A DNA stretch of 38,860 bases, from contig JARKSE010000019.1 in NCBI GenBank assembly GCA_029974315.1, forward strand, positions 1 to 38,860, in the 5' to 3' direction. Source of the DNA: Paludibacteraceae bacterium (GTDB lineage: Bacteria > Bacteroidota > Bacteroidia > Bacteroidales > Paludibacteraceae). Below, one piece after another: positions 6,438 to 38,121 of the stretch. Position 1 is the first letter of the stretch. Every line of letters begins with the position of its first letter. A program made the translations under genes and the position numbers. The notes beneath the pieces are model-generated. The model was given only the letters and a program-made list of their open reading frames with translations. It was not told the DNA's origin and ran no database searches.

Positions 6438-7283
6438 ATGGAAGGCGACTATCTGAATCAATTGTTTCGTATTTCGCATCTCAACGTGGACGATGCGCTG
6501 CGCATTCATGCGTCACCGCACGAACCTCATCAACATGATTATGAAACCCTGATTATAGGAATTCAAGGGCAACTGGAACATTTTGTCGATTTCAAAACCA
6601 CCATTATAGAAGCACCTTTAATCAGCTTTATTGCCAAAGGCAAAGTGCACAGCATCAATACACAATTGGTGAATGGGCAATTTGATGTGTGGGTGTTACG
6701 GTTTAAAAGCGAATTCATTGCCGAAACGGTTTTTCAACTCTATGCTAGTTACCACAACAATGCCAATCACCTATTGCATAAAGATACTTGCTTCGATAGA
6801 TTATCTCACGTTTGTGAACTCATGAATCACGAAATGGCTGTTCCTTCACCCGATTTATCCGTAGTGCGGCATTTGTTAAGTGCACTCATCATTATGATTG
6901 AGTCGGAACGCAAAAAACATAGTCCCAGCGACCAAAGCACAGCCATCAATCAGAACGAAACATTTATCAACTTCTTAAAAATAGTAGAAGCTAATTTTCG
7001 CCGACCTGTGGGCGTTGAATTTTATGCCGAAAAACTGTTTATGTCGGCCAGAAATCTCAATTTGATTTGTCAACGCATTATGGATCAGAGCGTCACAGAG
7101 TTGATAGAAACACGCAAACTGACCGAGGCCAAAAACCTACTAGCCAGCACCAATAAGTCGATATCCGAAATCGGTTTTGAACTCGGATTCAACGAAAAAG
7201 CCTATTTTTCGAATGTTTTCAAAAAGAAAACAGGACAAACACCGACCGAATTCCGTCAAGAAATACGTCAACTGATTTCCTAA
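6438..7283 (+). CDS. AraC/XylS family transcriptional regulator
   Basis: This 281-aa regulator has an N-terminal cupin-like effector domain (PHEPHQHDYETLIIG, about residues 26-40, then a beta-rich region to about 130). The C-terminal double helix-turn-helix spans about 183-278: FYAEKLFMSARNLNLIC is the first HTH, and KSISEIGFELGFNEKAYFSNVFKKKTG the second, carrying the family signature with GF...YFSNVFKKKTGQTPTEFR. It is coupled to the FMN reductase (2-bp gap) and lies just upstream of the pirin promoter. It probably controls this gene group; the inducer is unknown. Confidence 0.92.
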   Translation: MEGDYLNQLFRISHLNVDDALRIHASPHEPHQHDYETLIIGIQGQLEHFVDFKTTIIEAPLISFIAKGKVHSINTQLVNGQFDVWVLRFKSEFIAETVFQLYASYHNNANHLLHKDTCFDRLSHVCELMNHEMAVPSPDLSVVRHLLSALIIMIESERKKHSPSDQSTAINQNETFINFLKIVEANFRRPVGVEFYAEKLFMSARNLNLICQRIMDQSVTELIETRKLTEAKNLLASTNKSISEIGFELGFNEKAYFSNVFKKKTGQTPTEFRQEIRQLIS

Positions 7284-7334
7284 TATTACAACGCTTCTTC
7301 TGAAAAGTATTACCATTTGACCTTCAAGCCATTG

Positions 7335-7342
7335 TACCTTTG
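7335..7342 (+). promoter_or_regulatory. -7 element TACCTTTG of the pirin gene
   Basis: This is an exact TAnnTTTG match 26 bp before the pirin ATG, in the 85-bp gap after the AraC gene. A TTTG occurs at 7316-7319, but only 15 nt upstream, so the -33 spacing is off consensus. Such a weak promoter fits activation by the neighbouring AraC protein (inference). Confidence 0.5.
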
Positions 7343-7368
7343 TATCATCAATTATAAACAGTACAATT

Positions 7369-8085
7369 ATGGCAAATCAACTTATTCATAAAGCCGCAAC
7401 TCGTGGACACGCAGACCACGGCTGGCTACGAACCAATCACACATTTAGTTTCGCCGATTACTACAACCCAGAGCGTATTCACTTTGGTGCATTACGCGTG
7501 CTCAACGATGATTATATCGCTGGAGGCATGGGTTTTGGGACACATCCGCACGACAATATGGAAATTATTACCATTCCACTTGAAGGTGATTTAGAACACA
7601 AAGACAGTATGGGCAATGGAACCGTGATTAAACATGGCGACGTACAAGTAATGAGCGCAGGAACGGGTATTACGCACAGCGAATATAACCACAATAAAAC
7701 AAAACCGGTGCAATTATTGCAGATTTGGGTATTCCCCAATAAACGCAACGTAACTCCGCGCTACGATCAAATAACACTAGATGTAAACCAACGGCACAAC
7801 AAATTACAACAAATTCTATCGCCCAATAGCGATGATGAAGGCGTTTGGATACATCAGGACGCGTGGTTTCATATTGGTAGATTTGACCAGAACTTTGAAA
7901 CAACCTACACCTGGAAAAAACGAGGAAACGGCGTGTATGTATTTGTTATCAAAGGTGATATTACAGTAAATGGCACCGCTCTCAACGAACGAGATGGCAG
8001 TGGTATTTGGAATACCGATACCATGACCATACAAGCCAACTCGGCCAATGCCGAATTATTAATTATGGAAGTTCCTATGCATTAA
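7369..8085 (+). CDS. Pirin family protein (YhhW-like bicupin)
   Basis: This 238-aa pirin-type bicupin resembles E. coli YhhW, which has quercetin 2,3-dioxygenase activity in vitro. The N-terminal cupin contains the metal ligands: His59 and His61 in GTHPHDNMEIIT, and His103 and Glu105 in GITHSEYNH. RTNHTFSFADYYNPERIHFG is the usual pirin N-terminus. The C-terminal cupin (about 130-235) shows no second metal site, as in YhhW. It is followed 17 bp later by doxX and then by an extradiol dioxygenase gene, which is consistent with a role in oxidation or sensing of aromatic compounds. The true substrate is unknown. Confidence 0.92.
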   Translation: MANQLIHKAATRGHADHGWLRTNHTFSFADYYNPERIHFGALRVLNDDYIAGGMGFGTHPHDNMEIITIPLEGDLEHKDSMGNGTVIKHGDVQVMSAGTGITHSEYNHNKTKPVQLLQIWVFPNKRNVTPRYDQITLDVNQRHNKLQQILSPNSDDEGVWIHQDAWFHIGRFDQNFETTYTWKKRGNGVYVFVIKGDITVNGTALNERDGSGIWNTDTMTIQANSANAELLIMEVPMH

Positions 8086-8102
8086 CAAAAACAATTACAA
8101 CA

Positions 8103-8546
8103 ATGAAAACAATTATTAAAACCATTTTCAATTCGGGTTCAAACCAAACTCAATTATCAGTTGCATTATTAATCATGCGTTTAGCCATCGGCTCATTTAT
8201 GTTGACTCACGGCGTGGGTAAACTCATGATGCTCTTAGCCGAAGGTCCTGTACAATTTGCCGATCCTATTGGCATCGGTATGACTTTATCGTTAGTCATG
8301 GCTGTTTTTGCCGAATTTACCTGTTCAATTCTTATTATTTTAGGTTTTGGCACACGCTTAGCGACTCTTCCACTACTCTTTACCATGTTTGTAGCAGTGG
8401 CAGTAGTACATGCTGCCGATCCATTTGCGGTAAAAGAATTAGCGGCTTTATACGGCGTAGTTTATCTTATACTCTCTATTACAGGAGCAGGAAAATATTC
8501 ACTCGATTACTTAATTGGGAGGAAATTACATGCCAGCCACTCATAA
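8103..8546 (+). CDS. DoxX family membrane protein
   Basis: This 147-aa integral membrane protein has about four hydrophobic helices. The first contains the family motif RLAIGSFMLTHGVGKL (about residues 24-39), followed by SLVMAVFAEFTCSILIILGFGTRLATLPLLFTMFVAVAVV. The frame is open upstream to 8007 inside the pirin gene, but ATG 8103 gives a normal DoxX length and leaves a 17-bp spacer, so it is preferred. The last 17 bp overlap the start of the extradiol dioxygenase gene, so translation of the two is probably coupled. DoxX proteins are linked to thiol and redox homeostasis in some bacteria; the role here is inferred from neighbours. Confidence 0.9.
   Translation: MKTIIKTIFNSGSNQTQLSVALLIMRLAIGSFMLTHGVGKLMMLLAEGPVQFADPIGIGMTLSLVMAVFAEFTCSILIILGFGTRLATLPLLFTMFVAVAVVHAADPFAVKELAALYGVVYLILSITGAGKYSLDYLIGRKLHASHS
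8517..8522 (+). promoter_or_regulatory. Strong Shine-Dalgarno GGGAGG inside the end of doxX
   Basis: GGGAGG lies 7 nt before ATG 8530 and is embedded in the doxX coding sequence. It decides the start of the dioxygenase gene in favour of ATG 8530 over the in-frame TTG at 8515. Such a complete SD is unusual in a genome whose other genes mostly have AU-rich leaders. Confidence 0.7.
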
Positions 8547-9321
8547 AATGCCACTACTCTTTCTTGGGCACGGAAATCCGATGAATGCCATTAGTGAGAA
8601 TGAATTTATCGCAGGTTTTCGAGAAATTGCCAAAACCATTCCAAAACCCAAAGCCATTGTATGTATATCGGCTCATTGGGAAACGGATGGGACATTTGCA
8701 ACGGCTATGGAACATCCACCGACTATTCACGATTTTGGCGGATTTCCTAAAGCATTATTCGATGTTCAATATCCAGCTTCAGGAAATCCAACATTAGCCG
8801 AAAAAATTCGGGCATTGAGTAAAAACCAAATTCAACTTGATTTTACATGGGGCTTAGACCATGGCACGTGGAGTGTGGTGAAACACTTATATCCTGAAGC
8901 TGACGTGCCGATAGTACAAATAAGTCTTGATTACAAGAAATCATCGCAACAACATTATGAAACTATCCAAGCCTTGGCACCGTTACGCTACGAAGGTATT
9001 TTAATTGTTGGAAGTGGGAATTTGGTTCATAATCTACAACGTTTAGCGTGGGATAAACTAAATCAAGATGCGTATGCTTACGATTGGGCAGAAGAAAGCA
9101 ATGAGCAGATAAAAGAGGAAATTCGTGTACAAAACCACCAACAGCTCATGAATCACCCAACAGAAGAGAACCATTTTAAGTTATCAATACCAACACCAGA
9201 GCATTATTTGCCTTTGTTATACCTGTTGGGATTACAAGAAAAAAACGAACTAGTTCACTTTTTCAATGACAAAATCATTGGTGGCTCATTAAGCATGACA
9301 TCATTAAAAATAGGTAAATAA
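8530..9321 (+). CDS. ygiD: 4,5-DOPA-extradiol-dioxygenase-like protein (LigB family, YgiD)
   Basis: This is a class III extradiol ring-cleavage dioxygenase of the YgiD/DODA type, a metal-dependent enzyme acting on catechol-like substrates such as DOPA. The 263-aa length fits. Conserved features are the N-terminal LFLGHGNPMNAI (metal-ligand His14), ISAHWET (His49), HDFGGFP, the segment DHGTWSVVKHLYP with GLDHG, GSGNLVHNL, and a late His in TPEHYLPLLYLLG. The start chosen is ATG 8530, preceded by GGGAGG. It overlaps doxX by 17 bp, so the pirin-doxX-ygiD genes form one unit. The natural substrate is not known. Confidence 0.9.
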   Translation: MPATHKMPLLFLGHGNPMNAISENEFIAGFREIAKTIPKPKAIVCISAHWETDGTFATAMEHPPTIHDFGGFPKALFDVQYPASGNPTLAEKIRALSKNQIQLDFTWGLDHGTWSVVKHLYPEADVPIVQISLDYKKSSQQHYETIQALAPLRYEGILIVGSGNLVHNLQRLAWDKLNQDAYAYDWAEESNEQIKEEIRVQNHQQLMNHPTEENHFKLSIPTPEHYLPLLYLLGLQEKNELVHFFNDKIIGGSLSMTSLKIGK

Positions 9322-9343
9322 GTGTAACTATATAAAAAATAGT

Positions 9344-9351
9344 TATATTTG
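9344..9351 (+). promoter_or_regulatory. -7 element TATATTTG of mscL
   Basis: This is an exact TAnnTTTG match. The leader that follows contains a small hairpin (CAGAAG at 9352-9357 pairing with CTTCTG at 9362-9367) of unknown significance. The distance to the mscL start is about 76 nt. Confidence 0.5.
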
Positions 9352-9427
9352 CAGAAGACTTCTTCTGTAATTAGTCTCCTAAAAATACTATAAATCATTT
9401 ATTATCAACCTAAAAAAAACGAATGCC

Positions 9428-9850
9428 ATGAGTGTAATTAAAGAGTTTAAAGAATTTGCCATGCGTGGCAATGTGATTGATTTAGCGGTCGGTGTTGTTA
9501 TTGGTGGCGCATTTGGTAAAATTGTGGCTTCCTTGGTAGCAGACGTCATTATGCCTCCTATTGGATTGTTAATCGGCGGAGTGAATTTTACCGATTTAAA
9601 ATGGGAAATGAAAGCCAAAGAAGTAGTGGATGGCGTAGAGCAAGCAGCCGTCACACTTAATTATGGCAATTTCTTACAAGTAACGTTCGATTTTTTGATT
9701 GTTGCGTTTGCTATTTTTCTATTCGTCAAAGGTATAAACACACTAAACAAAAAGAAAGCAGAAGCACCTGTAACACCAGCAGCTCCTCCTGCACCAAGTA
9801 AAGAAGAGTTATTGCTCACCGAAATTCGTGATTTATTAAAGAAGAAATAA
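9428..9850 (+). CDS. mscL: Large-conductance mechanosensitive channel MscL
   Basis: MscL is the homopentameric inner-membrane emergency valve opened by membrane tension during hypo-osmotic shock. At 140 aa it is of normal size. Seen: the N-terminal amphipathic helix ([14 protein letters not shown]), TM1 with the pore-lining [23 protein letters not shown] pattern (about 20-44), a periplasmic loop (about 50-75), TM2 ([24 protein letters not shown], about 80-103), a proline/alanine-rich linker ([16 protein letters not shown]), and the C-terminal helix [12 protein letters not shown]. It is a single-gene unit with its own promoter and terminator. Confidence 0.96.
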
Positions 9851-9877
9851 GTTAAACTACACGTACAATTACAGAAA

Positions 9878-9908
9878 AAATCCTCGTCACACAGCGGGGA
9901 TTTTTTTC
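9878..9908 (+). terminator. Rho-independent terminator of mscL
   Basis: AAATCCTCG (9878-9886) pairs with CGGGGATTT (9895-9903), with one G-T wobble and an 8-nt loop. A T-run follows. Confidence 0.85.
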
Positions 9909-9930
9909 GTTTTAAGCAAAAGAACGATTA

Positions 9931-9962
9931 TTTGTGCATTACACCTTTTTTTCGTAATTTTG
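9931..9962 (+). promoter_or_regulatory. Promoter TTTG-N20-TAATTTTG of ileS
   Basis: A -33 TTTG (9931-9934) is followed after 20 nt by TAATTTTG (9955-9962). The predicted transcription start near 9969 gives a leader of about 55 nt. No T-box-like structure was recognised in that short leader. Confidence 0.7.
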
Positions 9963-10023
9963 CGAGCTTATAATTGCACACGCAGAAAAATTAAGTACAA
10001 CAACACTTTAAGTGCTTTTTACA

Positions 10024-13000
10024 ATGAAAAAATTCACAGAATACGCCCATTTCGATTTGTCGGACATCAACAAAACCATGTTGAAACAATGGAACGAAAA
10101 AGATCTGTTTCACAAAAGTATTTCTACACGCGAAGGTGCTCCTGCATTCGTTTTTTTTGAAGGTCCTCCAAGTGCCAACGGCATGCCTGGTATTCACCAC
10201 GTGATGGCGCGTACTATTAAAGATACGTTCTGTCGCTACAAAACCATGCAAGGCTTTCAGGTAAAACGTAAAGCGGGTTGGGACACACACGGATTACCAG
10301 TGGAACTTGGCGTAGAAAAAGCATTAGGAATTACCAAAGAAGATATTGGTAAAAAAATCACGGTCGACGAGTACAATAATGCATGTCGTGCCGATGTCAT
10401 GAAATATACCAAAGAATGGGAAGACTTAACCACTCAAATGGGTTATTGGGTGGACATGGAAAATCCCTACATTACGTACGACAATAAATACATCGAAACG
10501 TTGTGGTATTTACTCAAACAGTTATACAACAAAAACTTATTATACAAAGGTTACACTATTCAACCTTACTCGCCAGCGGCGGGCACAGGTCTTTCTACGC
10601 ACGAACTCAACCAACCAGGCTGCTATCGCGATGTAAAAGACACCACCTGTACCGCACAATTTAAAATAAAAGATGCTAAGTTTGGCAACAACGCTTACTT
10701 CCTAGCATGGACCACCACGCCTTGGACGTTGCCTTCGAACACCGCCTTGTGCGTAGGGCCAAAAATCACCTACAATATCGTAAAAGCAGACAATCCTTAC
10801 ACAGGAACACCTTGCACTTATATTTTAGCAAAAGATTTGGTGGCTAGCTATTTTGGCGAAAAGAAAATTGCCACCTTCAAAATCATCGGTGAATGTTCTG
10901 GTAACGATTTAGTCGGTTTAGAATACGAACAACTCATTCCGTGGGTAAATCCTGGCAACGGCGCGTTCCGCGTAATTGCTGGCGATTTTGTGACCACCGA
11001 AGATGGTACTGGTATTGTGCACATTGCGCCTACATTTGGTGCCGATGATGCTTTTGTGGCAAAAAAAGCAGGCGTTCCAGGATTAATCATGCTAACTAAA
11101 AAAGGCGAAACCCGCCCTATGGTGGACATGACTGGAAAATTCTTCTTGTTAGAAGATTTAGATGAAGCCTTTGTGCAAGCATCGGTTGATACTGAAAAAT
11201 ACCAAGAATTTGCTGGACGATTTGTGAAAAATGCCTACGACCCAACACTCACAGATCAAGATGAAACTCTTGATGTTGCCATCTGCATGATGCTAAAACA
11301 GCAAGGATTGGCATTTAAAATCGAAAAACATACGCACAATTATCCACACTGCTGGCGTACCGACAAACCTGTATTATATTATCCGCTAGACAGTTGGTTT
11401 ATCAAAACCACCGCTTGTCGCGAAGAGATGATGGAGCTCAACCAAACCATTAACTGGAAACCAGAATCGACAGGCACAGGACGTTTTGGAAAATGGCTCG
11501 AAAACTTGAACGACTGGAACCTCAGCCGAAGCCGTTATTGGGGAACACCACTCCCAATTTGGCGCACCGAAGATAGTTCAGAAGAAATTTGCATTGGCTC
11601 TATCGAAGAGTTGATAGCAGAAATCGAAAAATCAATTGCCGCTGGATTCATGACCGAAAATCCGTATAAAAACTTTGAAGTGGGCAACTACTCCAAAGAA
11701 AATTACGACCCTAAAAATATCGATTTGCACCGTCCTTACGTGGATGATATTATGTTAGTTTCGGCTACAGGTAAACCAATGAAGCGTGAACTTGATTTGA
11801 TTGATGTCTGGTTCGATTCAGGTGCTATGCCTTATGCACAATTACACTATCCTTTTGAAAACAAAGACGCCATTCGTACTGCAGACTTTATTTCTGAAGG
11901 CGTGGACCAAACACGTGGTTGGTTCTTTACCTTACACGCCATACACACCATGATAGAAAACCAAGTGGCGTTCAAAAATGTTATTTCTAACGGCTTAGTG
12001 TTAGATAAAAATGGCAATAAAATGTCGAAACGTTTGGGTAATGCAGTCGATCCATTTTCAACTATTGAACAATACGGTTCCGATCCACTACGTTGGTATA
12101 TGATGACTAACGCCTCACCTTGGGATAATTTAAAATTCGACATTGAGGGCGTTGAAGAAGTGCGTCGTAAATTTTTTGGAACACTTTATAATACCTACTC
12201 ATTCTTTGCACTTTACGCCAATATCGACAAATTTGAGTATTCTGAAACCGATATCCCGTTAACAGAACGTCCAGAAATTGACCGCTGGATTTTGTCACTA
12301 CTCAACACTTTAATAAAAGAAGTTACAGAACATTATGAAAACTACGAACCTACACGTGCAGGGCGTGCTATTAGCGACTTCGTTGGCGAAAACTTGAGTA
12401 ACTGGTATGTGCGTCTCAATCGTAAACGTTTCTGGGGTGGAACTATGGACGCTGATAAACTGTCGGCTTACCAAACGCTTTACACCTGCTTGGAAACTGT
12501 TTCGAAACTCATGGCGCCGATTGCTCCCTTCTTCGCTGACCAACTCTTCTTAGATTTGAATGCAGTAACAGGTAAAGACAAATCAGAATCGGTGCATATT
12601 GCCAAGTTTCCAACATACGATATAACAGCTATTGACATGCATTTAGAAGCCTGCATGCAGTTGGCACAACAAGCCACGTCCATGATTTTGGCACTCCGTA
12701 AAAAAGCAAATAAAAAAGTGCGTCAGCCACTTCAAAAAGCCATTATCCCTGCATCCGACAAAAAAACATTGGAGGAACTGTTGTATATGGCTGAATTGAT
12801 AAAAGCGGAAGTCAATCTGAAAGAATTAGAAGTTGTTTCGACCGAAACTTCTACGGTAAAATTAATCAAGCGCATCAAACCAAATTTCAAAACATTAGGT
12901 AAAAAATACGGCAAGCAAATGAAAGAAATTGCCGCCACACTTGATGAATTTACGCAAGAACAAATTCAAACCGTAGAAACAAAAGGCGACATAACACTAC

Positions 13001-31554: not shown

Positions 31555-32663
31555 ATCATCAAGAGTTGAGATATCAAATAGGCGTCACATTAATCAAGGG
31601 AATTGGACCCGTTAACGCGCGTAAACTTATCAGTTATTTAGGTGGAGTAGAGGCCGTATTTACAGAAAAACCTGAATTACTAAAAAAAATACCAGGTATT
31701 GGTGAAGTTTTAGCGAATGCCATATCTACGCAACAAGTTTTACAACGTGCTGATGCCGAAATTGAATTCATCGAGCGTTACAAAATACACACCCATTTCT
31801 TTACCGAATCATCTTATCCGTATCGTTTAAAAGAGTGTGAGGATGCTCCAGTATTAATCTATTCAAAAGGAACGGACGATTTTAACACTGGTCGCTATCT
31901 GGCCGTTGTTGGCACACGTAAAATAACGCCTTACGGCAAAGAATTGTGCCAATCTATCATTCAGTCGCTTGCTCAAACACAACCAGAATTAACCATTGTG
32001 AGTGGACTCGCCTATGGCGTAGACGTGGCGGCTCACAAAGCAGCTATAGACAATGATTTGCGCACATTCAGTGTTGTTGCACACGGTTTGGATCGTATCT
32101 ATCCTTCTACACATCAATCTGTGGCAAAGAAAATCATAGAAACGGGTGGTTCTATCATCACAGAATATCCAAGCCAAACCAATCCCGATGCGCCAAATTT
32201 CGTAGAGCGCAATCGTATTGTTGCTGGTATGTGCGATGCTACTTTAGTGATTGAATCAGGACTCAAAGGAGGCTCGTTAATTACAGCAGAACTAGCTAAT
32301 GGATATAATCGCGATGTATTTGCAATTCCCGGTCGAATAAGTGACACACAATCGCAAGGCTGCAATAACTTAATCTATAAAAATCAAGCCGTTTTAATTC
32401 AAACGGCTAGTGATTTAGAAAAATTCATGAATTGGGATGCACAAATGAATTCCAGAACTGTTCAGCAAAAACTTTTTACATCTTTGACTTCAGATGAAGA
32501 ACAAATTATTAATGTTCTTCGGGCGGAAGAATCGGTATATATTAATGCTTTAGCCACAAAAAGTAAAATCCCATTACAAAAACTATTAGGTTTATTAATA
32601 CAGCTCGAATTTAAAGGTTTGATTCATTCGTTACCTGGCAGTCATTATAAAATTGTATCGTAA
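31551..32663 (+). CDS. dprA: DNA processing protein DprA
   Basis: DprA binds incoming single-stranded DNA and loads RecA during natural transformation; it is also widely conserved in non-competent bacteria. The 370-aa protein has an N-terminal helix-hairpin-helix region (LIKGIGPVNARKLI and KKIPGIGEVLANAI). The extended Rossmann core follows with VVGTRKITPYGKE, SGLAYGVDVAAHKAA, GLDRIYPSTH, ERNRIVAGMCDATLVIES and FAIPGRISDTQSQGCNNLI. A C-terminal winged helix runs from about residue 305 (SDEEQIINVLRAEESVYINALATKSKIP). It overlaps vanZ-like by 4 bp and recO by 1 bp. Confidence 0.96.
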   Translation: MNHQELRYQIGVTLIKGIGPVNARKLISYLGGVEAVFTEKPELLKKIPGIGEVLANAISTQQVLQRADAEIEFIERYKIHTHFFTESSYPYRLKECEDAPVLIYSKGTDDFNTGRYLAVVGTRKITPYGKELCQSIIQSLAQTQPELTIVSGLAYGVDVAAHKAAIDNDLRTFSVVAHGLDRIYPSTHQSVAKKIIETGGSIITEYPSQTNPDAPNFVERNRIVAGMCDATLVIESGLKGGSLITAELANGYNRDVFAIPGRISDTQSQGCNNLIYKNQAVLIQTASDLEKFMNWDAQMNSRTVQQKLFTSLTSDEEQIINVLRAEESVYINALATKSKIPLQKLLGLLIQLEFKGLIHSLPGSHYKIVS

Positions 32664-33379
32664 TGATAAAAACAGAAGCCATCGTTTTACATACTATTCA
32701 CTACCGCGATCATAGTTATATAGTCCATTTATTCACACGCGAACAAGGCAGAATAAACTGTTTAGTGAAAGGTTCTAAGCAAAAGCTAGCATTATCGCCT
32801 GTACTAATGCAACCATTGTCACTTATCGATATAGTGCTAGATAATCGCACCTACAAAACATTTCAATACATACGCGAAAGCTCACCAACTAGCTTATTAA
32901 ATACAGTTCCATACGACCCCATCAAAAATAGTATCGCTTTATTTTTAAGTGAAATTCTCCATAAAACGCTCCGAGAGTCGGATAAAGAAAACGCTTTGTT
33001 TGATTTCGTGAAAGAGTCTATCCTATTTTTCGATACAACCACCAAAGGATTTGCTAATTTTCACCTCGTTTTCCTGATTAAAATGACCTATTTTCTCGGC
33101 TTTTTCCCTAATTTAAGTCAGTTTCACGACGGTGTCTATTTTGATATGCTCAACAGTCAATTCACCGAGCAGAATAACAATCCACACACCCTGAATGTAG
33201 AAGAAACAGAGGCATTTGCTCACCTTATGCGGATGGATTATGATAACATGCAGATTTTTAGTCTATCGCGTAACCAGCGTAATACCATTTTAGAACACAT
33301 CTTAACCTATTATCGGTTGCATTTACCCGAATTCGGAACGGTTAAGTCGTTGGATATTTTGCAACAACTATTTGCCTAA
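32663..33379 (+). CDS. recO: DNA repair protein RecO
   Basis: RecO anneals single-stranded DNA and, with RecR/RecF, loads RecA on SSB-coated DNA. The 238-aa protein has the N-terminal OB-fold (IKTEAIVLHTIHYRDHSYIVHLFTREQGRINCLVKG, residues 2-37) and a helical C-terminal region. The Cys4 zinc finger of some RecO proteins is absent. Its start overlaps the dprA stop by one base (TAATG). DprA and RecO both deliver DNA to RecA, so co-transcription is functionally sensible. It is the last core gene before the tRNA-Arg locus. Confidence 0.93.
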   Translation: MIKTEAIVLHTIHYRDHSYIVHLFTREQGRINCLVKGSKQKLALSPVLMQPLSLIDIVLDNRTYKTFQYIRESSPTSLLNTVPYDPIKNSIALFLSEILHKTLRESDKENALFDFVKESILFFDTTTKGFANFHLVFLIKMTYFLGFFPNLSQFHDGVYFDMLNSQFTEQNNNPHTLNVEETEAFAHLMRMDYDNMQIFSLSRNQRNTILEHILTYYRLHLPEFGTVKSLDILQQLFA

Positions 33380-33384
33380 GTCCA

Positions 33385-33416
33385 TTTGGAAAAACGCCAA
33401 AAATCAGCTACTTTTG
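33385..33416 (+). promoter_or_regulatory. Promoter TTTG-N20-TACTTTTG of tRNA-Arg
   Basis: A -33 TTTG (33385-33388) and TACTTTTG (33409-33416) are separated by 20 nt. The mature tRNA begins 12 bp after the -7 element. Confidence 0.75.
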
Positions 33417-33428
33417 TAGCATTCTAAC

Positions 33429-33500
33429 GCCCCCGTAGTTCAACGGATAGAACGAAAGTTTCCTAAACTTTAAATCTGAGTTCGATTCTCAGCGAGGGTA
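33429..33500 (+). tRNA. tRNA-Arg (anticodon CCU)
   Basis: This 72-nt cloverleaf reads AGG codons. D stem GTTC/GAAC (33438-33441, 33450-33453). Anticodon stem AAAGT/ACTTT (33455-33459, 33467-33471) with loop TTCCTAA, anticodon CCT at 33462-33464. T stem CTGAG/CTCAG with loop TTCGATT. Acceptor GCCCCCG (33429-33435) pairs with CGAGGGT (33493-33499); this includes a G-U end pair and one C-A mismatch at the fifth pair. The discriminator is A33500 and CCA is not encoded. It lies 49 bp after recO, and the accessory island begins at its 3' end. Confidence 0.88.
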
Positions 33501-33507
33501 CTTTTAA

Positions 33508-33552
33508 GCAGGTTAATTTTCTAATTACAAAGTAATTAGAAAATTAACCTGC
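33508..33552. repeat. Perfect 21-bp inverted repeat directly after tRNA-Arg
   Basis: The arm GCAGGTTAATTTTCTAATTAC (in 33508-33528) is perfectly mirrored at 33532-33552 around an AAA spacer. There is no T-run behind it on the plus strand, so it is not a textbook terminator, although it may stop or process the tRNA transcript. It starts 8 bp from the tRNA 3' end. Protein operator or element-end function is also possible. Confidence 0.8.
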
Positions 33553-33570
33553 CAACATTTTACCAGCATT

Positions 33571-33595
33571 AATAGCCACTAAATTAGTGGCTATT
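33571..33595. repeat. Second palindrome, 12-bp arms with 1-nt centre
   Basis: AATAGCCACTAA (33571-33582) and TTAGTGGCTATT (33584-33595) are perfect complements around one A. It lies 18 bp after the first palindrome and about 75 bp upstream of the -7 element of the first island gene. No T-run follows. Confidence 0.75.
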
Positions 33596-33670
33596 GTTAT
33601 AATAGATTATTCTTCCAAATTTACAGTCAACATTTTAATGGTTGTGCCGTATATTGGCGCTTAATGGCAA

Positions 33671-33678
33671 TAATTTTG
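33671..33678 (+). promoter_or_regulatory. -7 element TAATTTTG of the first island gene
   Basis: This is an exact TAnnTTTG match 27 bp upstream of ATG 33706. No TTTG at 19-20 nt upstream was found. Confidence 0.5.
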
Positions 33679-33705
33679 TAGGCAAAACAAATAAATTCAG
33701 TCACT

Positions 33706-34623
33706 ATGGAACCTAAAAAACTACAAAGTCTCTTAAAATCTGTATGCCTTTATGGGTACAATAACAACGATTGGTCAACATTCTTATGTTTAGTGGATTC
33801 TTTGCCTTCTACACTTAATTATTCATTTACAGAAGATTCTGACATATATACTGGATGGGAGAATTTTATCTTTGCTCTCAATTATTTAAACAAACGTATA
33901 CGGCAAGCCGATCAACAAATACCTCGCTACGATTCAGTAGCATCTGCAATTTTCAAGTTCAACACAAGAGGAACGCGTCAAAAAGCCCGAAAAGAGCTAC
34001 AAACAAGACTCCCCTACGTTGCTTACAACGAGCAAGTAAAGATACTGTATGCCTTTCTGAATGGAAGCAAAAAGGATCGCACTTTTGCCTACAAGTATCT
34101 ACAAGAACATTGGGAAGAACGGTTTGAAGAGACTATCATCAATCTCTACGAAAAACATCGCGATGTCGAAGCAGCTTGGCTTATTACTAAACGATGCTCT
34201 ATTGAGTATATCAAATCACACGAAAACGATTTGCTCAGCATGGTTTCCTATCTGTCAATTCGTCTGCGATATCCTGCATCAGAACCAATTAACGCTGACC
34301 GACTGACCGACAATGATCTGTTATACTTATTCGCAAAACAGCGAATCGACCTCGAAAACATATCGCGATATAAGAACTTAACACAAATCATCACAAACAT
34401 CATCCTTAATAGTTATAAGGAAAATATATACACAAAAAAACAACCTGAAATCAAAAGCATACTTACCCTCAAAGAAATACGCAGAATGAATTGGTGTTTA
34501 GCTAAACTCAAGCAAACGGAAATTATATTTCGTATACTAGAAGTTGATAAGTGTACACGAGAATTTATAGCTAAGGATGACTATGAGGGAGTCAAAAACA
34601 CAATTTTATCTATTATATACTAA
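33706..34623 (+). CDS. Unrecognised all-helical protein (island gene 1)
   Basis: I do not recognise this 305-aa protein. It appears almost entirely alpha-helical and soluble, with no signal peptide, membrane segment or catalytic motif. It is rich in Lys, Arg, Tyr and Asn, with basic stretches such as FKFNTRGTRQKARKELQTR (about 89-107). Repeated helical pairs (YAFLNGSKKDRTFAYKYLQEHWEERFEETIINLYEKHRDVEAAW) hint at a TPR- or HEAT-like scaffold; this is a guess. It lies between the tRNA-Arg palindromes and the WYL regulator gene (46-bp gap), in the same orientation as the three genes that follow. It could be a partner or DNA/RNA-binding component of the island system. Confidence 0.7.
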   Translation: MEPKKLQSLLKSVCLYGYNNNDWSTFLCLVDSLPSTLNYSFTEDSDIYTGWENFIFALNYLNKRIRQADQQIPRYDSVASAIFKFNTRGTRQKARKELQTRLPYVAYNEQVKILYAFLNGSKKDRTFAYKYLQEHWEERFEETIINLYEKHRDVEAAWLITKRCSIEYIKSHENDLLSMVSYLSIRLRYPASEPINADRLTDNDLLYLFAKQRIDLENISRYKNLTQIITNIILNSYKENIYTKKQPEIKSILTLKEIRRMNWCLAKLKQTEIIFRILEVDKCTREFIAKDDYEGVKNTILSIIY

Positions 34624-34669
34624 ATTTTCCATAAATTGAATTAACTTTACCTCCAATCAATTTAATACC

Positions 34670-35578
34670 ATGACACCGATTACGCTTTTCAAGCGGTATG
34701 TGTGGTTAATCGATACCATTTATTCCGCTTATTCTATTAGCAAAGAGGAAATCGATCACCGATGGTCTCTTTCGACTCTTAACGATAGTCATGAGAGTCA
34801 AATTCCCCGCCGTACTTTCTTTCGTCATAAGGAAGCCATTCAAGAGATTTTTGGGGTAAATATTGCGTGCGATAAAACCAAAGGTAGTGTTTACTATATT
34901 GAGAACCGAGAAGAAATCGAACATGACACAATACGCCAATGGGTTATCAGTACTTTCTCCGTAAATAATTTACTAACAAAGCGAGAATATCTTCGAGATA
35001 AAATATTGCTAGAGAACATTCCTTCAGGGCAGACATACGTAACGCGGATTTTGGACAGTATCGACCATGGTCAGCAATTGTCTATAATATACCAGAGTTT
35101 TTTTGATGACACTCCATATAATGTTATCGTGGAGCCTTATTGCCTAAAGCTGTTCAAACAACGCTGGTATGTTCTTTCCCATCGCCCCGACAAGATGCAG
35201 CTCAGGGTTTATGCCTTAGATCGAATTTCATCGCTTTCACTTACTGGATCATCTTACACCATTCCTAAAACGTTTGATGCAGAACTATTCTTCAGCAACT
35301 ACTATGGTGTACTGCTTAATCGTAAGGTGGACAAAATTGTATTGCGCGTTACCAATTTCCGTGCAAAGTACCTAAATTCATTGCCGCTTCATCACACTCA
35401 GCAGGTTATAAAAACCGACAAGGGATTCACATGGTTGGAACTTCACGTTGCCCCAACTTTTGATTTCATTCAAGAAATTCGTTCTATGGGTAATGAAGTC
35501 CTAATAGAGGCTCCAAATTACCTTCGAAACGAATTACTCTTTGACTACCAAACATCTCAAGAATTGTATAACAAATAA
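34670..35578 (+). CDS. WYL-domain transcriptional regulator (CapW/BrxR-like)
   Basis: This 302-aa regulator has an N-terminal winged HTH (about 1-80, including SQIPRRTFFRHKEAIQEIFGV, a DeoR-like recognition helix). A WYL domain covers about 120-195: VEPYCLKLFKQRWYVLSHRPDKMQLRVYALDRI, where the Trp-Tyr-Val stands for the W-Y-L core. The C-terminal WCX-like segment (about 215-295) contains KIVLRVTNFRAKYL and IEAPNYLRNELL. WYL proteins bind nucleotide or nucleic-acid ligands, and several (CapW, BrxR) repress bacterial defence operons. It precedes the membrane protein gene by 13 bp, so it probably autoregulates the island. Confidence 0.87.
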   Translation: MTPITLFKRYVWLIDTIYSAYSISKEEIDHRWSLSTLNDSHESQIPRRTFFRHKEAIQEIFGVNIACDKTKGSVYYIENREEIEHDTIRQWVISTFSVNNLLTKREYLRDKILLENIPSGQTYVTRILDSIDHGQQLSIIYQSFFDDTPYNVIVEPYCLKLFKQRWYVLSHRPDKMQLRVYALDRISSLSLTGSSYTIPKTFDAELFFSNYYGVLLNRKVDKIVLRVTNFRAKYLNSLPLHHTQQVIKTDKGFTWLELHVAPTFDFIQEIRSMGNEVLIEAPNYLRNELLFDYQTSQELYNK

Positions 35579-35591
35579 ATCATAAAAGCAA

Positions 35592-37076
35592 ATGGGAATT
35601 ATTGGAAACGCATTTAAACGCGAAATAGGTAAAAATACAGGAAAAACCGTAAGTAATATCATCTTTGGAGACAAATGGTCAACACCATATCGGCGAGCTG
35701 ATGCGGCAAGAGAAACTAGAGCAGAAGCTCAGAGGATTAGACAAGAGGCTGACGCAGAAAGAATATCGGAAAAAGTAAGAGAAGATCATGCTCGATACCT
35801 AAATTCTGTGGACAAAGCTGTTATTCAGAATATAGATCAAGTAATTGCTATTAGATTTGACGATGTTGACCCATCACATTTATGTCATCAACTACAAGGT
35901 CTAATTGTTCAGTTGAAAGTTAATAATTTTAAAGATAACTCTGACGAAGATAAAATTAGAGCAAAATATAGTAACGCCGTATTGGAAAAATCAAAACAAG
36001 GTTTAGAACTACTTGTAGCAATTGACCCACTAAATAAGCAAATTCCTTATTTTGACAAACAAATATTGGAAGCCGAGCGTACAAAAAGTAAGGTATTTAA
36101 ATGGTACTTGATAATATCTATCATTATAGCATTTTTTATAAGCATCCTCAGCCCAATTTTAGCAGTTATTATTTGGGGAGTTGTTACACTCTTTGCACTA
36201 ATTGGTTGTTCTATAATAAGGAAAATTCGTGAAAAAAGATATGTGTACATAGTAAAAGCACAAAAAGAACAGCGTACAAATGCATTGGCGCAGTCAAAAA
36301 AGCAAGACAAGTACGAACATATTATAAAGCAAAAAGAAGATTTAAATTCAGAGTTATTACAGAAGCAAGACGAATTAAGAGCGAGAAAGGAAACTAAAAC
36401 CACACAAAAAGAAACATCGAAAAGCGAAATATTAAAGCAACATGACGCTTTATGGGAAAGGTATTACTCCCTACATCCAATACTCGAGCGTGGCTATCAA
36501 GTCTGCGAAACCACCGAACATAAGGATATTTTAATTATAGGTTTATGCTCAAATTCACCAACGGGCAACAGCCATAATGGATTAAGTGCATACCCCTTCC
36601 ATTCAATGGTTGATCAAAAAATCATAATGGATATGTTGGTTGGACAGGGTTTTAATCTATTTTCAGCAAGCACATACTTAGACCTTTTTAGTTGTAAAGA
36701 GTTAACCGACGTAATTCGTTATGAACTAATACAAAATCCAAAGACATTTGATTATGTTGTTAATCAAGTTAGAGTAGCTCAAAACGTTATCGAAGACATC
36801 ATCACTCCAAAAATAATTATCATTTTAGAGAAAGATGCTTGGGCATTTTTTGGAAGGATAAAAAAACTTACTTGGATGGGATACTCATACCAGATTATTG
36901 GAGACGTAAATGGTCTTGAAATATGTGAAATTACAGGTTTTACAAATGCTAAAGACCGCTTAGCTCAAGACACCAGACATCAAACAAATTTAATTGGCAC
37001 AAAAATAATATTTACCAATTACTCAGAACAAAATAAACTCCCAAAAGCAGAGCAATTGCTTAGTTATTTAAAATAA
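35592..37076 (+). CDS. Membrane-anchored coiled-coil protein with Rossmann/UDG-like C-terminal domain (island gene 3)
   Basis: I do not recognise a named family for this 494-aa protein. A charged N-terminal segment (33-70, RRADAARETRAEAQRIRQEA...) looks like a coiled coil. A helical region follows, then two adjacent transmembrane helices (about 171-188 and 190-209, WYLIISIIIAFFISI and AVIIWGVVTLFALIGC), and a second long coiled coil (about 211-290). The C-terminal domain (about 290-494) begins with KDILIIGLCSN, a beta-strand and glycine loop. It later has TPKIIIILEKDAWAFFG (406-421), resembling the 'PKVIVALG' strand of uracil-DNA-glycosylase-fold proteins. Expected topology: both long domains cytoplasmic, hairpin in the membrane. 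It is co-oriented with WYL (13 bp) and the next gene (22 bp). Confidence 0.65.
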   Translation: MGIIGNAFKREIGKNTGKTVSNIIFGDKWSTPYRRADAARETRAEAQRIRQEADAERISEKVREDHARYLNSVDKAVIQNIDQVIAIRFDDVDPSHLCHQLQGLIVQLKVNNFKDNSDEDKIRAKYSNAVLEKSKQGLELLVAIDPLNKQIPYFDKQILEAERTKSKVFKWYLIISIIIAFFISILSPILAVIIWGVVTLFALIGCSIIRKIREKRYVYIVKAQKEQRTNALAQSKKQDKYEHIIKQKEDLNSELLQKQDELRARKETKTTQKETSKSEILKQHDALWERYYSLHPILERGYQVCETTEHKDILIIGLCSNSPTGNSHNGLSAYPFHSMVDQKIIMDMLVGQGFNLFSASTYLDLFSCKELTDVIRYELIQNPKTFDYVVNQVRVAQNVIEDIITPKIIIILEKDAWAFFGRIKKLTWMGYSYQIIGDVNGLEICEITGFTNAKDRLAQDTRHQTNLIGTKIIFTNYSEQNKLPKAEQLLSYLK

Positions 37077-37098
37077 TCATTTAAAAATAATACACAAT

Positions 37099-37806
37099 AT
37101 GAACAACACTTTTAATCATGTTTTAGAGGTATATTCAAAAGCGGTGGATTTCAATGGGAATAACGAATTTGTAGGATTTGGTAATCCAAATAGTAGTATC
37201 TTAATCATAGGTCAAGAACACACTTTACAAGGTAATGATTGGGAAAAATTCCACAATAATAACTGCGAACAATGGATTAAAACTTTAAAAGAGAGGTTAC
37301 GAGCTCACCGATGGGAAAAAGAACTAGGTGATTATAAATTCCCAGAGTTTTTTAATCCTCGTAATCCATTTTTTCCTAAGGAAATTGATTATAAGGAAAG
37401 TCATACTTGGTTCAACTATCAGAAACTTATGGACGTTGTTTGCCCACACAGTGGAACTACTATAAACTTTTTTGATCATTGCTTTATTACAGAGATGAGT
37501 AATATCTGTAGTACACACAACCCTCAAACAAAAGATGTTGAAAAAAGTATTGCTCATCGTTTTGATTTAATGAAAGAGACAGTCGATTTTTGGAAACATT
37601 TTAAAGTAGTTATATTAGCATGTGGCCCATATGCTAATGCTATCTTCAATAAAACAAAATTCCCCAATCTCGAACGTGAACTTTTCGGAGAAGAAGGTAA
37701 GCTGATTCCTACTCGTCAATTCTCAATGGTATCTAATGAAGAAATTCGTCAAATTCAGTCAGTCATTATCGAGAAATTAGATTTAGTTGCTCCGTTCTAT
37801 TTTTAA
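37099..37806 (+). CDS. Putative UDG-fold-like protein (island gene 4)
   Basis: This soluble 235-aa protein has motifs in the same order as uracil-DNA-glycosylase superfamily proteins: VGFGNPNSSILIIGQE (25-40, compare the G-x-P..ILFVGE strand), FFNPRNPFFP (84-93), CFITEMSNICSTHNP (128-142, compare the 'yitN..kcrP' strand), VVILACGPYANAIF (170-183, compare the 'vivlLG..A' strand) and a late PTRQFSMVSNEEI (204-216), where UDGs have the HPS leucine loop. The His-Pro-Ser loop and the acidic water-activating residue are not evident, so glycosylase activity is doubtful. The fold is inferred from motif spacing only. It is the last island gene, 22 bp after the membrane protein gene, with AT-rich coding sequence like its neighbour. 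Confidence 0.55.
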   Translation: MNNTFNHVLEVYSKAVDFNGNNEFVGFGNPNSSILIIGQEHTLQGNDWEKFHNNNCEQWIKTLKERLRAHRWEKELGDYKFPEFFNPRNPFFPKEIDYKESHTWFNYQKLMDVVCPHSGTTINFFDHCFITEMSNICSTHNPQTKDVEKSIAHRFDLMKETVDFWKHFKVVILACGPYANAIFNKTKFPNLERELFGEEGKLIPTRQFSMVSNEEIRQIQSVIIEKLDLVAPFYF

Positions 37807-37970
37807 AATTCAAGCACAGACACATTACTCAAGTTCGCAACAGCTTAAATTGTATTGGTCAATTTATCACGATTATATTTACAGGGCAAGAATATAAGTG
37901 TTCCGAGACATTTTGCTCATATCATCGTGTTGGTTTTATGGGCATTATGATACAAATAACTCCTTGTTCA

Positions 37971-38002
37971 TTTGGTAAAACGGCAAAAATTAGCTACTTT
38001 TG
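37971..38002 (+). promoter_or_regulatory. Retained tRNA promoter, now upstream of the RNA methyltransferase gene
   Basis: TTTG-N20-TACTTTTG is identical in elements and spacing to the tRNA-Arg promoter at 33385-33416. Transcription from here would start near 38009 and run through the tRNA fossil into the methyltransferase gene at 38122. Confidence 0.65.
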
Positions 38003-38013
38003 TACCATTCAAT

Positions 38014-38082
38014 ACCACATAGTTAAGGCTACGACAAAAGTTCCCGAACTTTAAATTTGAGTTCAATTAATCAGCTAGGACA
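38014..38082 (+). pseudogene. tRNA-Arg pseudogene (fossil copy)
   Basis: The sequence matches the intact tRNA-Arg(CCU), most clearly TAGTT near 38019-38024, AAAGTT, AACTTTAAATTTGAGTTC (38047-38064) and TCAGCTAGGA. The anticodon loop is changed to CCCG, the D arm is disrupted, the T stem is broken by an insertion (TTCAATTAATCAG), and the acceptor arms no longer pair. It cannot fold into a normal cloverleaf. Confidence 0.8.
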
Positions 38083-38121
38083 GCTATTTTTTTGTTAATA
38101 TTTTCAATCATCCACACCATT

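Follow-up and report, generated by a model that had tools for sequence, protein, structure and literature searches.

A four-gene island beside a tRNA-Arg(CCT) gene of a Paludibacteraceae bacterium carries a predicted UDG-fold protein with candidate Brig-like pocket residues

Described glycosylase and WYL systems

The closest described counterparts of the locus analyzed here are the Brig proteins, which have the UDG superfamily fold and are encoded in small operons; according to the consulted parts of the two papers, the Brig1 operon has three genes, and the Brig3 operon includes BapA (PMC11078745, PMC13160076). Brig1 and Brig3 come from soil-DNA screens, and Brig2, a Brig1 homologue, protects Pseudomonas (PMC13160076). 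In Brig1, E147 takes the place of an Asn that is common in related UDGs, and immunity is affected by Y121A, E147A, and E147Q (PMC11078745); in Brig3, E55A, W100A, and D127A/N abolish defence (PMC13160076). The legend of the Brig1 homologue tree names Firmicutes, Proteobacteria, Actinobacteria, Cyanobacteria, and Planctomycetota (PMC11078745); the string "Bacteroid" is absent from the main text of both papers (PMC11078745, PMC13160076). An engineered counterpart is the cytosine-DNA glycosylase UDG N123D, an E. coli enzyme with Asp for Asn at the base-reading position, which, in the consulted text, has cytosine-excising activity and is toxic to E. coli cells (PMC3989344).

Regulators of the CapW/BrxR type (CBASS, BREX) combine WYL and WCX domains with an N-terminal region and lie in or beside putative defence operons; 338 of 347 BrxR homologues are proteobacterial in the consulted parts of the sources (PMC9122588, PMC9122601). 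One figure legend names UDG among predicted domains (PMC13092281). The module described below was not found in the literature searched, a scope with subscription papers and most preprints outside it.

The window, i.e., the whole stretch of 38,860 nucleotides analyzed here, carries four genes (g1–g4) between two copies of a tRNA gene. The g4 product resembles the Brig proteins in its predicted fold and small operon, and g2 resembles CapW/BrxR in its domains and its place in a putative defence operon. Unlike in the Brig operons, the partners of g4 include a WYL regulator, a helical protein, and a membrane protein, and several loci encode a second UDG-fold or UDG-like protein; unlike in CapW/BrxR systems, the neighbours of the WYL gene are UDG-fold and UDG-like proteins.

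Borders of the island and exchange of its cargo

Table 1. Features of the island (window coordinates; strand "." where none applies)
Feature	Coordinates	Strand	Remark
Putative promoter-like region TACTTTTG upstream of tRNA-Arg, part of direct repeat	33395..33428	+	repeat alignment
tRNA-Arg(CCT), intact, left end of island	33429..33501	+	ARAGORN; Rfam RF00005, 62.1 bits
Perfect inverted repeat, 21-nt arms, 3-nt loop	33508..33552	.	inverted-repeat search
Perfect 25-bp palindrome, 12-nt arms, 1-nt centre; candidate operator or terminator	33571..33595	.	
g1, 305 aa, mostly helical by eye	33706..34623	+	frequent g4 partner
g2, WYL + WCX transcriptional regulator, 302 aa	34670..35578	+	Pfam/PADLOC
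g3, full ORF	35592..37076	+	
g3, N-terminal module, ~residues 1–259	35592..36368	+	conserved start, helical/coiled-coil region, hydrophobic segment
g3, C-terminal putative UDG-like domain, ~residues 286–494	36447..37076	+	assigned by motif order
g4, predicted UDG-fold protein, 235 aa, candidate Brig-like pocket residues E40, W104, E132	37099..37806	+	
Decayed promoter + tRNA-Arg copy, right end of island	~37977..38079	+	repeat alignments

Four intact genes lie, as the initial annotation stated, on one strand between recO and a gene for a TrmH-family methyltransferase; the gaps between them are 46, 13, and 22 bp, and Pfam identifies the flanks as RecO (RecO_N/RecO_C) and SpoU methylase (TrmH). 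The 4.5-kb cargo is bordered on the left by the intact tRNA-Arg(CCT) and on the right by a decayed duplicate of this tRNA and its promoter. The direct repeat comprises the tRNA and ~35–40 bp upstream, including TACTTTTG, which is promoter-like, judging by the Bacteroidota promoter consensus. The right copy is 77% identical to the intact one (query bases 2–108 of 114), and the local alignment score of 98, where 500 shuffles reach 32 at most, bears out the proposed tRNA-Arg repeat at both ends. The repeat does not detectably extend into recO, as the score there, 27, is equalled in 26% of 300 shuffles. The G+C content of the island is 34.7%; 4.5-kb windows left of it average 38.4% (sd 1.7, minimum 35.8%).

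The sister genome G001 (same genus) has recO, a single intact tRNA-Arg(CCT), 99% identical to that of the window, and TrmH, with ~160 bp between recO and TrmH. Since this site is empty, the cargo and the second tRNA copy constitute a true insertion/deletion difference. Matches to g4 are seen in 13 of 150 family genomes; the same number have matches to g3, some of them weak or covering one half only. The empty site and this patchiness reject core synteny of the four genes, and the initial description as an accessory island stands. Two hallmarks of a tRNA island are thus observed: the tRNA is directly repeated at the two ends, and a relative has the site empty; the third, an encoded integrase, is absent, as had been noted, with none integrase-like among the listed ORFs between the repeats, of which g2 alone, and not g1, g3, or g4, matches a Pfam family above cut-off.

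The decayed copy differs from the intact one at 19% of aligned sites, while dS between the species of the window and of G001 is 0.09 and 0.16. Because the divergence of the duplicate is at least as large as the interspecies synonymous divergence, yet G001 has no duplicate, the initially suggested exchange of cargo by homologous recombination between the tRNA repeats is plausible, though not proven. Possible, but somewhat doubtful, is that the ends derive not from tandem duplication with homologous exchange but from an integrative element that inserted site-specifically at the tRNA 3′ end and has since lost its integrase. Consistent with such an element, the left junction coincides with the tRNA 3′ end, and at three other loci (L080, L088, L089) the operons are also tRNA-adjacent; however, at those loci no second tRNA copy was found and the operon sits at the promoter end of the tRNA. 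In the window, promoter and 5′ part belong to the right copy, which a usual att core would not include, the promoter of this copy is of the local type and not of the type of two other lineages, and the interval lacks an integrase-like ORF.

The proposal that the tRNA is a hotspot is supported in part: in another lineage, an operon of the g3 N-terminal module, WYL, and g4 lies 149 bp from tRNA-Arg(CCT), and in genome G004 a g3–g4 pair lies 5.5 kb from tRNA-Arg(CCT). Cargo is exchanged between loci, as three species of a single genus show at one site: behind the WYL gene stands a g4-type gene in L063/L107, and genes of the type of the g3 C-terminal domain, g3C, in L075 and L076; g3C is likewise exchangeable between loci. 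Carriage on plasmids or phages was rejected, since plasmid and phage records showed no match to the module; the IMG/VR search yielded two contigs, L151 and L152.

Predicted fold and conserved residues of the encoded proteins

The AlphaFold (AF2) model of g4 (pLDDT 84.7, pTM 0.85) shows a predicted UDG alpha/beta fold, in agreement with the initial suggestion. The best Foldseek match is a family-4 UDG (E 3.7e-5, TM-score 0.46/0.54), the VIA comparison with family-4 UDG gives Z 10.4 over 164 residues at rmsd 3.6, and the best match among viral structures is a phage UDG (E 1e-3). Similar to family-4 UDG and UdgX, g4 has the motif-1 start GxGNPxA...IG; unlike them, it shows ~10–14% identity in structural alignments, has Glu or Asp for the motif-2 Asn, does not keep the motif-3 HPS, and has no Pfam match (among 50 relatives, one matches a Pfam UDG family, at E 0.027). 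No useful hhalign alignment was obtained for g4 and family-1 Ung. A housekeeping Ung was rejected as an identity of g4, as two PF03167 genes lie elsewhere in the genome and g4 lacks a Pfam match.

Residues were counted over 77 g4 relatives and the window sequence, 78 in total (74 distinct), of which 77 cover the sites and the fragment L143 covers none. Because the pattern GNPx[SA][KDS]ILI[IV] served to find the relatives, its conservation is built in; it does not include residues 40, 104, 132, or 154. In 77/77, the acid of motif 1 that follows the first strand in the UDG superfamily is E40; position 132 is acidic in 77/77 (Glu 67, Asp 10); R154 is kept in 77/77 and Q108 in 76/77; position 104 is Trp in 66/77, otherwise Tyr (8), Phe, Cys, and His (one each). 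The same trend is observed in a 50-row alignment of the window and 49 of the 77 relatives, which omits near-duplicates, fragments, overlong ORFs, and others by no fixed rule: E40, acidic 132, R154, and Q108 in all 50 rows, W104 in 45.

The position that aligns, weakly, with the uracil-reading Asn of UDG motif 2 is thus Glu or Asp; this alignment of E132 has an hhalign probability of 13% and a pairwise E of 5e-4. In place of the motif-3 HPS the window has PTRQFS, and the position aligned, again weakly, with its His is Gln in 54, His in 20, and Asn in 2 of 76 sequences. Near motif 3, position 204 is Pro in the window and His in 53/76 sequences (39/50 in the smaller alignment).

The conserved residues of g4 appear to match the pocket residues of Brig3 and Brig1 in kind and order, as compared from the published residue positions, and their positional equivalence is presumed. 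The acid at the Asn site (Brig1 E147, Brig3 D127) would correspond to E/D132, the earlier acid of Brig3 (E55) to E40, and its aromatic residue (W100) to W104; likewise, Y121 and E147 of Brig1 would pair with W104 and E132 (PMC11078745, PMC13160076, residues as given in the consulted parts). A UDG fold with an acid for Asn and an aromatic stacker, the combination that characterizes Brig proteins, is thus seen in g4 if the positions are equivalent. The same kind of change distinguishes UDG N123D, with Asp there and Glu in 67/77 g4 sequences.

The N-terminal module of g3 has a conserved start, FKRExGKNTGKxVSN, and a hydrophobic segment at residues 174–192; hydrophobic segments are present in 13 of 15 rows of g3 relatives. 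Judging by motif order, the g3 protein may end in a second UDG-like domain, tethered to the membrane and degenerate here: the motif-1 GxNP, kept by 13 of 16 sequences, is missing from the window g3, which may therefore be a binding or scaffolding partner. The g3 structure model has a mean pLDDT of 55, with the listed structural matches mostly on helical residues 71–167. Nothing was found for g3C among PDB sequences, and a profile link between g4 and g3C was rejected (hhalign probability 1%).

These features bear on a reading that we find quite unlikely, in which the UDG-fold parts are sensors of nucleic acids or nucleotides, not enzymes, and g3 is the effector of abortive infection by membrane damage. 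The hydrophobic segments of g3 relatives, the degenerate motif 1 of the window g3, and Pro204 in place of the usual His in the window g4 would fit it; retention of E40, E/D132, and R154 in 77/77 g4 sequences argues against it, and so does the absence of a g3 match within three genes of g4 in 61/68 loci, so that most g4 genes have no such membrane partner nearby.

The WYL regulator of the initial annotation is confirmed in g2 by Pfam (WYL 5.6e-13, WCX 4.3e-6), as in CapW/BrxR; a Pfam HTH match, sought for an N-terminal winged HTH, is absent from residues 1–120. For g1, no known family was found in Pfam or PADLOC, and PDB sequences gave two weak matches (E 0.16 and 2.2). Both perfect inverted repeats of Table 1 lie upstream of g1. 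Unlike for CapW/BrxR, upstream palindromes are not enriched in WYL operons as a class (24 WYL operons vs. 450 controls, p 0.22); a common WYL operator is not supported.

Recurrence, gene neighbourhood, and possible function

The 72 loci found with g4 are titled Bacteroidota, except L137 (a Chlorobiota MAG). Removal of the near-duplicates L081, L084, L095, and L125 leaves 68 loci found with g4 alone; related MAGs remain among them (L080/L088/L089, L128/L131, L108/L133), so the loci are not all independent. Up to three genes away from g4, WYL occurs in 20 loci, g1 in 20, and g3 in 7, and in 35/68 all three are absent. By ORF, WYL, g1, and g3 account for 20, 20, and 8 of the 387 within this distance and for 1, 0, and 0 of the 493 farther away (Fisher p 7e-7 for WYL); their profiles matched none of 262 ORFs in 20 random regions. 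All four genes occur together in L149, L145 (WYL truncated where the contig stops), and G165 (g3 lacking its C-terminal domain). In the 150 family genomes, apparently the same draw for both searches, g3 and g4 share 5 genomes vs. 1.1 expected (p 0.002), or 4 vs. 1.0 without the window's own genome (p 0.009). The four genes belong together as one system. For distant pairs, dN/dS was not computable or dS exceeded 1.5 in 7/7 cases.

The initial annotation likened the layout to defence islands and could match no named system. The latter holds: in PADLOC g2 is the sole match among the cargo proteins, so a known defence system was rejected, and Pfam names none either. On the former, the neighbourhood is not discriminating. 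For the two nearest other genes of at least 110 aa on each side of g4 (74 loci), PADLOC matched at least 185 models for 139 proteins and at least 264 for 140; it matched at least 155 for the 128 proteins at the distal ends of these loci and at least 120 for 125 proteins of random regions. The scan covered all 279 near and 128 far genes, and 125 ORFs of random regions, the last three of these being shortened or dropped. The models overlap heavily, and random regions also matched type I specificity, AbiD models, and general helicases; the tallies, somewhat higher beside g4, do not discriminate.

Single neighbours of g4 relatives include HsdR, HsdS, OLD, and RT. Type I HsdR genes immediately precede two of these relatives, and another, at L152, overlaps by 4 nt an RT gene judged retron-type by its motifs; an Rfam search of this contig found no retron ncRNA.

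The explanation that we prefer, with about even confidence, is a WYL-controlled, Brig-like base-excision immunity module in an exchangeable island at tRNA-Arg(CCT). By analogy with CapW, BrxR, and PafBC, the WYL protein would hold the operon low until an infection or DNA-damage signal releases or activates it. The g4 protein, with an acid replacing the uracil-reading Asn of UDGs, would then flip out and remove from invading DNA a base other than uracil, probably a modified cytosine-like one, if its chemistry follows Brig1 and Brig3. The g3 protein may tether another UDG-like domain to the inner membrane, so that it could meet incoming phage DNA there. This explanation is favoured by the insertion, the recurrence of the four genes, the predicted g4 fold with its conserved residues, the cargo exchange, and the RT overlap at L152. 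Points that weigh against it are the PADLOC tallies, Pro204 of the window g4, the loss of GxNP from the window g3, the weak placement of E132 on the UDG Asn, the failed profile link of g4 to g3C, the 35/68 loci lacking all three partners, the lack of an operator class among WYL operons, and the lack of matches in plasmid or phage records.

We regard as unlikely an accessory DNA-damage or repair module, in which WYL senses ssDNA or nucleotides, as do PafBC and DriD, and induces UDG-fold removal of damaged bases of the host. WYL regulators of the DNA-damage response are known from the consulted parts of several papers (PMC11804915, PMC12340889, PMC10693628), and g4 has the predicted UDG fold; however, the genome already has the two PF03167 genes, and the patchy distribution (13/150), absence at the sister's recO locus, and exchange of domains between loci are unlike conserved repair. 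Very improbable to us is an addiction role, toxin–antitoxin-like or selfish, with g4 as a host-toxic base excisor restrained by WYL and perhaps g1. Such a role would agree with the cytotoxicity of UDG N123D, which has the same kind of change (PMC3989344, consulted text), with g1 as a frequent neighbour (20/68), and with the mobile-site location, but the 35/68 loci that lack all these partners argue against it, and the HsdR and RT neighbours suggest an immune role.

A wider form of base-excision immunity, which we offer tentatively and hold to be rather doubtful, would span the phylum and have two parts, a soluble Brig-like g4 and a UDG-like g3 tethered to the membrane, whose base-reading domains are exchangeable and which a WYL sensor keeps switched off; the UDG-fold part of this modular cassette would be swapped as the hypermodified bases of Bacteroidota phages change, and at L152 the fold would have been recruited as a retron effector.

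Glycosylase immunity is a recently recognized kind of defence. If the preferred explanation is true, a Bacteroidota family with a pocket of the Brig kind would extend base-excision defence to a common gut and rumen phylum; glycosylase defence would also gain a regulator of its own, a helical partner, and a second domain held at the membrane, along with natural variants for reading different phage base modifications.

Co-occurrence of the four genes

The four genes of the island, encoding an apparently helical protein (g1), a WYL regulator (g2), a coiled-coil membrane protein (g3) and a protein of the uracil-DNA glycosylase (UDG) fold (g4), form one system. One scan of GTDB genomes with the g4 relatives (alignment A3) as the sole query yields 72 loci, titled Bacteroidota save for one Chlorobiota MAG, and 68 once near-duplicates are taken out. 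Within three genes of g4, WYL is seen in 20/68 loci, g1 in 20/68 (adjoining g4), g3 in 7/68, and none of the three in 35/68. Counted by ORF, WYL, g1 and g3 make up 20, 20 and 8 of 387 near g4, versus 1, 0 and 0 of 493 farther off in the same loci; 20 random regions (262 ORFs) contain none of the three. Among 150 genomes of the family, g3 and g4 are each found in 13, and 5 carry the two together (expected 1.1, p 0.002); with the window's own genome left out, 4 share them (expected 1.0, p 0.009).

The order found in L149, and in L145, where the contig end cuts WYL, is WYL-g1-g3-g4; L145 and L149 are 69% identical in g3, 37% in g4, and 45% in g1. Other orders are g3N-g1-WYL-g4 in G165, with g3 lacking the C-terminal domain (g3N, N-terminal module); g3N-WYL-g4 in L080, L088, and L089; g1-g4-WYL in G001, a sister genome of the same genus, at another place than recO-TrmH; and g3-g4, without adjoining g1 or WYL, in G004 and G368. 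The N-terminal module is fused to the C-terminal module g3C in the window, G107, G368, L145, and L149, to the other C-terminal type (g3Cb) in G004, G066, and G147, and stands unfused, alone, elsewhere; in G026 g3 is split into two ORFs. The g4 of G004 is 67% identical to the window's, yet its g3 bears g3Cb. The 305-residue, apparently helical g1 has no known relatives among known families.

The island at tRNA-Arg(CCT)

The cargo lies on one strand between a tRNA-Arg and its decayed duplicate, as the initial annotation had proposed: the repeat reaches a local alignment score of 98, versus at most 32 in 500 shuffles, and no extension of it into recO is detectable by local alignment against shuffles (p 0.26). 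The left junction coincides with the 3' end of the tRNA, and the TrmH leader follows directly after the right copy. That the island is accessory, with recO and TrmH as flanks, is supported by the empty site of G001, where recO and TrmH stand ~160 bp apart with a single tRNA-Arg(CCT) between them, and the tRNA region is 99% identical to the window's. The G+C content is 34.7% in the island versus 38.4% on its left side, and within it 36-39% in g1 and g2 versus 33-34% in g3 and g4. The source MAG is 82% complete (1.63 Mb, 6% contamination).

Features of the island and of loci with g4 relatives
Feature	Locus	Position	Strand	Remark
recO	window	32663-33379		left flank of island
tRNA-Arg(CCT), intact	window	33429-33501		left end of island
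Perfect inverted repeat	window	33508-33552		21-nt arms, 3-nt loop; just past tRNA
Perfect palindrome, 25 bp	window	33571-33595		~110 bp before g1; may serve as operator or as bidirectional terminator
Four ORFs, g1-g4	window	between intact tRNA-Arg(CCT) and decayed copy	+	
Decayed tRNA-Arg copy, including promoter	window	about 37977-38079		right end of island
SpoU/TrmH methylase gene	window	translated from 38122		right flank
HsdR (type I)	L098	4789-7950		directly upstream of g4 relative
HsdR (type I)	L099	4656-7862		directly upstream of g4 relative
g4 relative and OLD-family ATPase-TOPRIM gene	L141 (Myroides)	7938-12795		OLD-family gene follows g4 relative
Retron-type RT and g4-family UDG-fold gene	L152 (IMG/VR UViG_3300005144_000001)	7039-8756		RT overlaps start of UDG-fold gene by 4 nt
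RNase_T (DEDDh-like), small	L062	10542-11033		between WYL and g4-type gene or near
RNase_T (DEDDh-like), small	L116	7466-7957		between WYL and g4-type gene or near
RhuM family	L129	5790-6776		adjoining or near g4 relative
RhuM family	L138	4836-5768		adjoining or near g4 relative

The promoter of the decayed copy resembles the local tRNA promoter, unlike those of two other lineages, so this copy was probably made locally. Since it differs from the intact region at 19% of aligned sites, versus dS of 0.09 (recO) and 0.16 (TrmH) between the window species and G001, the duplication may be older than their split; G001 would then have lost the cargo, or the window's genome gained an old allele. The lineage of L080, L088, and L089 has tRNA-Arg(CCT) 149 bp from the operon, which lies on the promoter side of the tRNA; by a rough estimate, ~0.016 tRNA-adjacent cases are expected among 67 loci (window set aside).

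Among the upstream regions of 24 WYL operons, the inverted repeat past the tRNA scores highest, and comparison of these regions reveals no palindrome class. G014 carries two TrmH copies (contigs C206 and C100), 73% and 68% identical to the window's, reflecting either contamination or duplication.

Neighbors of g4 relatives

The HsdR genes, from Faecalibacter and Flavobacterium, are assigned by Pfam (L098) and by clustering with L098 (L099); HsdS is seen near the g4 relative in L105. The RNase_T exonuclease, found also in L121 and L129, is another recurrent partner of g4-type genes, and one of the RhuM proteins has a Fic domain. In L152, a DnaB-like ATPase lies upstream of the RT, and a WYL gene on the opposite strand. 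The RT motifs NAAQH, YADD, and VTG we take to be retron-type; the pair may be a retron whose effector has the UDG fold, of which a limited literature search found none.

As single cases, the HsdR, HsdS, OLD, and RT neighbors speak for a defense role, as does the control of CBASS and BREX by regulators of g2-like architecture (PMC9122588, PMC9122601). Against it, PADLOC defense-model tallies fail to tell the surroundings of g4 from far locus ends or random regions and so show no enrichment, no palindrome class is seen upstream of WYL operons, and phage and plasmid records give no match at E 1e-4.

UDG-fold domains and function

No family of Pfam, NCBIfam, or PADLOC matches g4. Its AlphaFold model, built with 49 relatives (pLDDT 84.7, pTM 0.85), has family-4 UDGs as best solved matches (Foldseek E 3.7e-5, TM-score 0.46/0.54; by VIA, Z 10.4 over 164 residues, rmsd 3.6, 12% identity). 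In all relatives at hand (78 sequences, sites covered in 77), Glu40, Phe129, and Arg154 are each kept in 77/77 and Gln108 in 76/77; position 132 is Glu (67) or Asp (10), and position 104 is Trp (66), Tyr (8) or, in the remainder, Phe, Cys, or His. A weak profile alignment (probability 13%) with two Bacteroidales family-4 UDGs places Glu132 on the uracil-reading motif-2 Asn and aligns position 207 (Gln 54, His 20, Asn 2 of 76) with the HPS His; its motif order agrees with the strand order of the model. A role in accessory DNA repair would suit a UDG fold, and is a less probable reading than defense.

Glycosylase immunity itself is already described. For the anti-phage glycosylase Brig1, the authors put Glu147 at a position that is frequently Asn in related UDGs, and immunity is affected by Y121A, E147A, and E147Q (PMC11078745). 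Brig3 requires Glu55, Trp100, and Asp127, and its pocket also needs Asn50, followed by Pro51 (PMC13160076); the Trp-to-acid spacing is 28 residues in g4 versus 27 in Brig3.

The N-terminal module is conserved among relatives of g3 and contains hydrophobic segments in 13/15 rows (one in the window, 174-192; none in the short split g3 of G026); many relatives add a C-terminal domain of ~200 residues. The motif order of this domain, strand-GxNP, YxDxF, PKxIIV, GTKxxF, is that of a UDG fold. GxNP is kept in 13/16 sequences (GxNPS in 9); the three without it are the window's g3 and those of L068 and L190. In motif 2, Asp is found in 12 and Asn in 4 of the 16. Speculatively, Asn50-Pro51 of Brig3 matches the GxNP position. 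Since the full-length g3 model is poor (pLDDT 55) and profile comparison of g3C with g4 finds no relationship, we only infer a UDG-like domain here. Some support comes from one chromosomal site in three species of one genus, with shared flanking genes, where g4-type (L063/L107) and g3C-type genes (L075, L076) replace each other behind the same WYL gene. That the UDG-fold parts act as sensors in abortive infection seems somewhat less probable than repair.

When the uracil-reading Asn of a UDG is changed to Asp, the enzyme excises cytosine and proves toxic to E. coli cells (PMC3989344); an activity of this kind would account for tight regulation. Toxicity would also suit an addiction module, the least probable of these readings. 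The most likely function of the four genes, held with middling confidence, is a Brig-like base-excision defense module under WYL control.
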